A stretch of DNA of 51,563 nucleotides from an uncultured Archangium sp. (GTDB lineage Bacteria > Myxococcota > Myxococcia > Myxococcales > Myxococcaceae). Position numbers and translations under genes: made by a program. A model generated the notes under the pieces. It saw only the letters and a list, made by a program, of their open reading frames with translations, had not been told where the DNA came from and made no database searches. The stretch covers positions 1 through 51,563 of the forward strand of contig CAIVGN010000018.1 of assembly GCA_903905455.1 (NCBI GenBank). The letters run 5' to 3'. Shown in pieces: positions 564 to 7,293 of the stretch (the stretch's first letter is position 1; the number at the start of each line of letters is the position of its first letter).

Positions 564-926
564 ATGACTGATGCCACCAAGGCCATGCGTTTGATGCTGC
601 TGGGCGCGATCGAGCGCGCGGTCGTCACCTCCATCGAGCTCGAGGGCCCCGATGGGCTCCACCTCGACGCCGCCCTCGCCGAGGCCGCCGGCTTCTTCGA
701 ACACGAGAAGCTCGACGTGCTCGACGTCACCACCGGCAACCGCTTCGCCTGCCAGGTGCGCTTCGCCAAGCCCGAGTCGGGCGACGTGGGGTTCACCGGC
801 GCCTCCGCCCACCTCGTGAAGCCCGGCGAGCTGGTCAGCCTCGCGAGCTTCGGGTGGATGAAGGCCAAGGCCGCCGCGAAGCACCAACCGCGCATCGTGA
901 CCGTCGACGACGAGAACCACGCGTGA
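564..926 (+). CDS. PanD-fold protein lacking the pyruvoyl-forming serine (probable pseudoenzyme)
   Basis: The 120-residue product aligns without gaps to aspartate 1-decarboxylase (PanD, which makes beta-alanine for pantothenate). Shared landmarks are a VT pair, AAGF, VTTGNRF and GASAH. The catalytic residues are not kept. Using E. coli numbering recalled from memory, the Gly24-Ser25 self-cleavage pair is Asp30-Gly31 here, Lys9 is Ala15, His11 is Glu17, Thr57 is Cys63, Tyr58 is Gln64 and Asn72 is Thr78; Arg54 is retained as Arg60. Self-processing and decarboxylation are therefore not expected. Met8 is an alternative start. The stop overlaps the GTG start of the HprK-like gene by 4 bases, implying translational coupling. 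There is no Shine-Dalgarno; a TACAGT box lies at 549-554. The fold assignment is secure, the function unknown. Confidence 0.8.
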   Translation: MTDATKAMRLMLLGAIERAVVTSIELEGPDGLHLDAALAEAAGFFEHEKLDVLDVTTGNRFACQVRFAKPESGDVGFTGASAHLVKPGELVSLASFGWMKAKAAAKHQPRIVTVDDENHA

Positions 927-6630: not shown

Positions 6631-6870
6631 ATGGCCAGCCTGACCATCCGCAACCTCGATGACGACGTGAAGGAGCAGCTCCGGGTGCGGGCCGCGAAGA
6701 ACCAACGGTCGATGGAGGCCGAGGTTCGGGCGGTGCTCACCCAGGCGGTGCGCGGTACGGCCGACAGCGCGTCCTTCGTCGCGCGCTTTCGCAAGGCGCT
6801 CAAGGGCCACGAGGTCGAGCTGCAGTTGCCTTCGCGCGCTTCGGCGCGCAAGCCGCCTTCCCTGGGCTGA
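6631..6870 (+). CDS. FitA-like ribbon-helix-helix antitoxin
   Basis: This 79-residue protein begins MASLTIRNLDDDVKEQL, the short beta-strand and first helix of a FitA/Arc-type ribbon-helix-helix DNA-binding domain, followed by RSMEAEVRAVL. The C-terminal half, rich in basic residues, would wrap the toxin. It lies 3 bases upstream of a PIN-domain gene, the usual antitoxin-toxin order. It is expected to bind the palindrome at 6588-6613 and repress the pair, with stronger repression in complex with the toxin; this is family knowledge, not shown here. Confidence 0.85.
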   Translation: MASLTIRNLDDDVKEQLRVRAAKNQRSMEAEVRAVLTQAVRGTADSASFVARFRKALKGHEVELQLPSRASARKPPSLG

Positions 6871-6873
6871 CCC

Positions 6874-7293
6874 GTGCTGCTCGACACCAACGTCATCTCC
6901 GAGTTGATGCGGCCCGAGCCGGACCCCAGCGTGTTGCTGTGGTTCCAGGTTCGCCCCCGGGAGTCCGTGTCGCTCTGCTCGGTGACCCGCTTCGAGCTCT
7001 TCGCCGGGGTGATGGCGCTGCCGGTCGGCAGGCGCCGGACCTCGCTCCTCAAGTCGCTGGGCGACATTCTCGACGCCGAGTTCCGCACGCCATGCCTCCC
7101 GTTCGACCGCAACGCCGCAGAGGTGTGCGCGGAGATCGTGACCCATCGCCAGCGAATGGGCGCGCCGATGGACCTCGGCGACGCGCAGATCGCGGCCATC
7201 GCCCTGGTCAACGGGTTGCCCCTGGTGAGCCGGAACGTGAAGGACTTCGCCCGGGTGCCCGGCCTCGAGGTCATCAACCCCTGGGACGCCTGA
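6874..7293 (+). CDS. FitB/VapC-type PIN-domain toxin
   Basis: The 139-residue protein has the PIN nuclease layout: LLDTN at the N-terminus (first acidic residue Asp4), FELFAG in the middle, GDAQIAA and RNVKDF near the end. These acidic residues bind Mg/Mn in the RNase site. LISELMRP-like sequence after the first motif is characteristic of the FitB/VapC subgroup. The GTG start at 6874 follows the antitoxin stop by 3 bases. It probably cleaves RNA when released from its antitoxin; the target is unknown. All four acidic positions are present, so it looks intact. Confidence 0.87.
   Translation: MLLDTNVISELMRPEPDPSVLLWFQVRPRESVSLCSVTRFELFAGVMALPVGRRRTSLLKSLGDILDAEFRTPCLPFDRNAAEVCAEIVTHRQRMGAPMDLGDAQIAAIALVNGLPLVSRNVKDFARVPGLEVINPWDA

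Follow-up and report, generated by a model that had tools for sequence, protein, structure and literature searches.

The window, that is, the whole stretch of 51,563 nucleotides analyzed here, carries close to its beginning an open reading frame (positions 564 to 926, + strand) that starts with ATG, runs uninterrupted and encodes a protein of 120 amino acids with the PanD fold and without the self-cleavage site of PanD, as judged from PF02261, TIGR00223, an AlphaFold model and VIA-align. We refer to this protein as pseudo-PanD. Upstream of it lies the C-terminal part of a ligase-associated exonuclease-like protein (positions 2 to 541, + strand; TIGR04122, 8e-20, partial), which is cut by the contig start and was used as a marker of the locus. 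On the other side, the stop codon of pseudo-PanD overlaps through the letters GTGA (923-926) the gene of an HprK/PEPCK-like P-loop kinase homologue (positions 923 to 1672, + strand), and the coupling described in the earlier note on this DNA is thus real as far as the overlap is concerned. The kinase-like protein matches TIGR04352 at 6e-8, which is below the cut-off, shows PEPCK and HprK as its Foldseek matches, and presents an invariant GKSGDGKST-like P-loop and conserved Asp-Glu motifs. Further along the window (6631-7293, + strand), two adjacent small genes of 79 and 139 amino acids resemble an antitoxin and a PIN-domain (VapC-like) toxin, respectively; the same pair is located at the same place in genome G003 (L036).

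The PF02261 profile matches pseudo-PanD over its positions 3-113, the whole length of the family, at 3e-22 and 79.1 bits (cut-off 25). The alignment to PanD of M. tuberculosis (2c45) contains no gaps, with residues 8-118 of the query on residues 2-112 of the chain; a gapless alignment to PanD had already been proposed from the sequence, and the correspondence to E. coli residues given in the earlier note agrees with it. The AlphaFold model reached a pLDDT of 96.5 and its best structural matches are uncleaved PanD forms (TM 0.92); the uncleaved form 1ppy superimposes on it over 114 residues with an rmsd of 0.7 (VIA-align Z 21.6). Both the profile and the double-psi barrel, the latter in a predicted model, place the protein in the PF02261 fold family. 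On the other hand, it scores 69.7 bits against the panD equivalog TIGR00223, far under the cut-off of 106 set for a functional panD.

A search of 195 genomes of the phylum gave a bimodal distribution of PanD scores, in which normal proteins score at least 128 bits and exactly eleven do not exceed 99 bits. These eleven, which we call dead PanDs, all belong to the family of the window and lack the serine. The earlier note had asked whether other genomes share the lost cleavage pair and whether a normal panD exists elsewhere in the same genome: eleven genomes of a single family have such a protein, and the PF02261 search of the window's genome gave pseudo-PanD as the only match. Likewise, no second PanD was detected beside the dead copy in the other genomes, each of which has one PF02261 match. 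Since ten other genomes encode the same type of protein, pseudo-PanD is neither a product of chance nor a sequencing error. A pattern scan of GTDB R220 with the dead-type motifs of this lineage, which dead PanDs of another origin could escape, found only normal PanDs outside the family; the dead-PanD records that it retrieved include MAGs labelled Archangium sp., Myxococcaceae and Myxococcales. In G004, which belongs to the same genus, no PanD match was obtained, the gene being either absent or missed by the assembly. Two PF02261 genes per genome were observed in G118 and G120 (genus g23), and both score as normal PanD.

In the alignment with 2c45, the Gly24-Ser25 self-cleavage pair is replaced in the window protein by Asp30-Gly31 (codons 651-656, + strand), and Lys9, His11, Tyr22, Thr57, Tyr58 and Asn72 are replaced by Ala15, Glu17, Gly28, Cys63, Gln64 and Thr78. 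From the set Thr57, Tyr58, Lys9 and Arg54, only the arginine is retained, as Arg60 (codon 741-743, + strand). The altered positions and the retained arginine had been named correctly in the earlier note, to which the change of Tyr22 has to be added. Across the eleven dead PanDs, Ser25, Gly24, Tyr22, Tyr58 and Asn72 are retained in none, Lys9 in one, Thr57 in two and His11 in four; Arg54 is the sole examined residue of the substrate pocket that is retained in 11/11. Position 30 is Asp in nine of these proteins and position 31 is Gly in ten, and no conserved Ser, Thr or Cys was found near the cleavage site among the eleven, one of which has a deletion there. In normal PanD, Thr57 is required for activation, Arg54 binds the substrate carboxylate, Lys9 also lies in the substrate pocket, and Tyr58 is involved in reprotonation (PMC3975893). 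According to the titles of the structures, the variants S25A, H11A and T57V were deposited as unprocessed PanD. Given that the pyruvoyl-forming serine is a glycine and that the activating and catalytic residues are gone, pseudo-PanD should be unable to make the pyruvoyl cofactor, and these residues argue strongly for a protein devoid of both cofactor and decarboxylase activity. The dead PanDs show a combination expected of a pseudoenzyme, that is, catalytic residues lost and fold residues retained. The presence of Arg54 in all of them would fit a small bound carboxylate or a structural role.

Normal PanDs with all the catalytic residues were found at the same locus in four relatives (G030, G051, G057 and G018), in the order exonuclease-like protein, PanD, pentapeptide-repeat protein, RluD-type pseudouridine synthase and penicillin-binding protein, with an HprK-like gene nearby; the exonuclease-like neighbor is common to normal and dead PanD loci. 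Three of these four genomes share their genus with four dead-PanD genomes. In both the rpoB tree and the tree of the flanking genes, carriers of normal and dead PanD interleave: a single clade of normal-PanD genomes was rejected on the flanking-gene tree (p 2e-6), and the rpoB test on the mixed-state genus gave p 0.008. When the dead carriers were all tested on rpoB as a single clade, p was 8.5e-47, a value inflated by the PanD-less G004 placed inside them; the argument therefore rests on the two preceding tests. On the rpoB tree, irreversible loss would require about five losses, and plain parsimony four changes. The window gene is therefore best taken as a putative orthologue of ordinary panD, and since normal and dead carriers share the locus and interleave on these trees, it is probable that catalysis disappeared in situ on several occasions.

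All eleven dead genes have intact frames, with no stop codon inside them (the two TGA that were counted in dead frames are true stops passed by the search). In the fold region, the dN/dS of dead pairs was 0.16 for G045/G135, 0.25 for G003/G005 and 0.27-0.30 for G009 with G135 and G045, within a full range of 0.16-0.55, compared to 0.07-0.10 in normal pairs. In the closer dead pairs, synonymous changes affect 20-45% of the sites and non-synonymous changes 4-16% (Fisher p 5e-6 to 1e-7); the weakest purifying signal is the one between the window gene and G003 (dN/dS 0.55, p 0.015). These values are, if anything, too high, because the high third-position G+C (0.78-0.97) makes synonymous change look small. 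The dead panD genes are under relaxed but real purifying selection. Such selection after the loss of catalysis, as expected for a pseudoenzyme, is observed in the closer pairs and is weaker in the window's own pair.

PanC and PanB are present in the dead-PanD genomes tested, which consequently appear to still make pantothenate and to need beta-alanine. Among 96 genomes of the family, amidases of TIGR01879 (hydantoinase/carbamoylase) were found in 10 of the 11 with dead PanD, in 10 of the 21 without PanD and in none of the 64 with normal PanD (Fisher 1.3e-11, with genomes treated as independent); only three to five contrasts are phylogenetically independent, and these all point the expected way but are too few for significance. 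Among the genomes tested, the dihydropyrimidine dehydrogenase PreA occurs in 10/11 dead, 1/9 normal and 6/6 PanD-less genomes, and dihydropyrimidinase in 9/11 dead and 1/9 normal genomes. G045, a dead-PanD genome that is 85% complete, has none of the three uracil genes tested, and its near-identical sister G135 has all of them. Contig C234 of the window's genome groups the genes of PreA, dihydropyrimidinase, a PreT-like protein and a nitrilase-type amidase with those of an NCS1 permease, a methylmalonate-semialdehyde dehydrogenase and a class III aminotransferase. From its gene content, this cluster is predicted to encode the reductive uracil pathway, which can supply beta-alanine. The third-step amidase is a putative assignment, as family scores do not settle the substrates of TIGR01879 proteins: for the two such proteins compared, the highest score is that of the allantoate amidohydrolase subfamily, and the nitrilase-type amidase on C234 is under its nearest curated cut-off. 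In Rhizobium etli, the uracil route supplies beta-alanine for pantothenate without panD, and its AmaB is of the same enzyme class as the TIGR01879 amidases (PMC7142369). There are good reasons to propose that uracil breakdown yields beta-alanine in dead-PanD genomes, the co-occurrence of the genes being an observation and the flux what we infer from it. The reductive uracil pathway of these bacteria would have made the loss of PanD catalysis possible, and metabolic replacement is the likely cause of that loss.

Some other genomes and candidates should be mentioned in relation to beta-alanine supply. A PanP-type PLP decarboxylase was discarded as a substitute, since none of 33 genomes gave a match over the TIGR03799 cut-off and weak PLP matches were uncorrelated with PanD status. 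Among the genomes with normal PanD, PreA and dihydropyrimidinase were found only in G034, which has no TIGR01879 amidase; the full uracil route may be absent from it or served by another amidase. G011, G015 and G026 have neither PanD nor a TIGR01879 amidase and nevertheless present PanB and PanC; other PanD-less relatives are likewise without this amidase. In L162 (contig C193 of G000), L177 and L178, a second TIGR01879 amidase is located beside a xanthine-dehydrogenase-like protein, a nitrilase-type amidase and an amidohydrolase, a neighborhood resembling a cluster for purine or hydantoin catabolism.

Only four positions are conserved in dead and normal same-locus PanDs and not in outgroups, and all four are lysines (6, 100, 102 and 106). 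Three of them fall in residues 100-106 (K-A-K-A-A-A-K; codons 861-881, + strand); at these positions all 11 dead PanDs and all 4 normal ones of the same locus have K or R, and six outgroup PanDs do not. The fourth, Lys6 (codon 579-581, + strand), belongs to an N-terminal extension and is present in the same 11/11 and 4/4, the outgroups having no residue there. In addition, most members have a lysine-rich C-terminal tail, which is absent from the window protein and from that of G001. Since these lineage-specific lysines are common to active and dead members, we consider with moderate confidence that a non-catalytic second function would predate the loss of catalysis; it is their conservation that is observed, and the function that it suggests. 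The simplest reading is that the second function of this PanD lineage is charge-based and would have been acquired while catalysis was still in place.

Other explanations have to be weighed against these observations. As regards history, a single ancestral loss could have been followed in some relatives by restoration of a normal panD, through same-locus transfer or through loss of one of two tandem copies. The panD gene tree groups all dead copies, weakly (86/84) and on long branches, and the recurrence of Asp and Gly at positions 30 and 31 points in the same direction. However, flanks and rpoB put normal and dead carriers together, no genome was found with both copies, and a panD tree with the mixed-state genus held together was not rejected (p 0.28), this tree being too short and long-branched to settle one loss versus many. 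We regard a single loss as rather unlikely; in any case, it alters the history of dead PanD and not its function. With respect to function, pseudo-PanD could serve the overlapping HprK-like kinase homologue as its dedicated partner or substrate, as suggested by the GTGA overlap and by the presence of the kinase-like gene, with its conserved motifs, beside or near PanD in most loci. Yet this gene is linked to normal as well as to dead PanD and changes side between genera, being downstream of PanD in g1 but lying before the exonuclease gene in g5, and no copy of it was found in the regions retrieved from G006 and G045; for these reasons it was not taken as the partner, an arrangement that seems to us very unlikely. 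An activator of an active PanD paralogue, in the manner of a prozyme, was ruled out by the single PF02261 match in the genome.

It could also be argued that the uracil pathway took over and left panD functionless, so that the dead copies are slowly decaying remnants, still open because the loss is recent or because of translational coupling to the neighbors. The dN/dS values, two to five times those of normal PanD pairs, the many PanD-less genomes of the family that also carry uracil genes, and the lack of a detectable PanD in G004 are all in agreement with decay, and it is the relaxed selection together with G004 that keeps this explanation a rival. Nonetheless, eleven frames without internal stops, in spite of the extent of synonymous change in the closer pairs, and the retention of the four lysines and of fold-core residues but not of active-site residues make decay unlikely. 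The earlier note had opposed decay on account of the intact frame and of the coupling to the next gene; the frame argument stands in 11/11 genomes, with dN/dS of 0.16-0.30, while the coupling is a weaker support than was held, because the same neighbor gene adjoins or lies near normal PanD too. At the other extreme, the protein could still make beta-alanine or another product by unusual chemistry, with processing elsewhere or with non-covalent pyruvate in the pocket. The fold and Arg54 are retained, and this is the sole PanD found in the genome. Had it also supported beta-alanine synthesis, the note's proposal of a non-enzymatic role would have failed; but the absence of a conserved Ser, Thr or Cys near the cleavage site, with a deletion in one member, the loss of Tyr58, Asn72, Lys9 and Thr57 in most or all members and the co-occurrence of another beta-alanine route make residual chemistry most improbable.

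A maintained non-enzymatic role, as the earlier note had proposed, is the best fit and is supported by the intact frames, the dN/dS of the closer pairs and the single PanD. We consider it probable that a panD orthologue became a pseudoenzyme, that the uracil route replaced its catalysis, and that what keeps the protein in place is an older, non-catalytic task. With the cleavage serine and the catalytic residues gone, no pyruvoyl cofactor would be formed, and dihydropyrimidine dehydrogenase, dihydropyrimidinase and carbamoyl-beta-alanine hydrolase would provide beta-alanine to the retained PanB and PanC. The folded, uncleaved, zymogen-like barrel would be retained for a task already present in the lineage. 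More tentatively, the protein might for this task use the lysine helix 100-106, together with the lysine-rich tail in most members, to bind a nucleic acid or an acidic partner, and Arg60 might perhaps hold a small carboxylate. It is conceivable, though we would not bet on it, that the PanD lineage of this family was bifunctional at an early stage and that its non-catalytic task matters enough for the protein to have survived about five independent losses of catalysis.

Pseudoenzymes are usually duplicates that persist beside a living copy. The dead PanD is noteworthy in that it took the place of the active gene instead of accompanying one: the sole panD copy lost its chemistry and the genome seems to have acquired another source of beta-alanine, apparently several times in one family. 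Normal, dead and absent PanD among close relatives constitute a natural experiment on a possible second function of PanD; if the bifunctional reading is true, PanD has a general moonlighting role, exposed here by natural separation-of-function variants. In practical terms, automatic annotation will label dead PanDs as aspartate decarboxylase, and beta-alanine synthesis will be misplaced in pathway models.

In the open-access literature, with most subscription journals outside its scope, we found no description of a retained dead PanD, but several known systems can be compared with it. Pseudo-PanD shares with the PanD zymogen (PF02261, TIGR00223) the fold over the 114 superimposed residues, the family, the locus of its active orthologues and Arg54; unlike the zymogen, it has lost the Gly-Ser pair and most catalytic residues, and scores below the panD equivalog cut-off. 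The AdoMetDC prozyme of trypanosomatids (PMC5201418) is likewise a homologue of a pyruvoyl decarboxylase that lost catalysis and was retained. However, the prozyme acts on a living paralogue, which it activates within the same cell, and the window's genome has no active PanD. A change of function within a pyruvoyl-enzyme family is also represented by the SpeD homologues that became ornithine or arginine decarboxylases; these self-process to a pyruvoyl enzyme (PMC10407285), whereas the dead PanDs lost the cleavage site. Finally, R. etli, through AmaB (PMC7142369), obtains beta-alanine from the uracil pathway in PanD's stead, as the genes suggest for the bacteria studied here; R. etli does so without any panD, whereas the myxobacteria keep a dead one.
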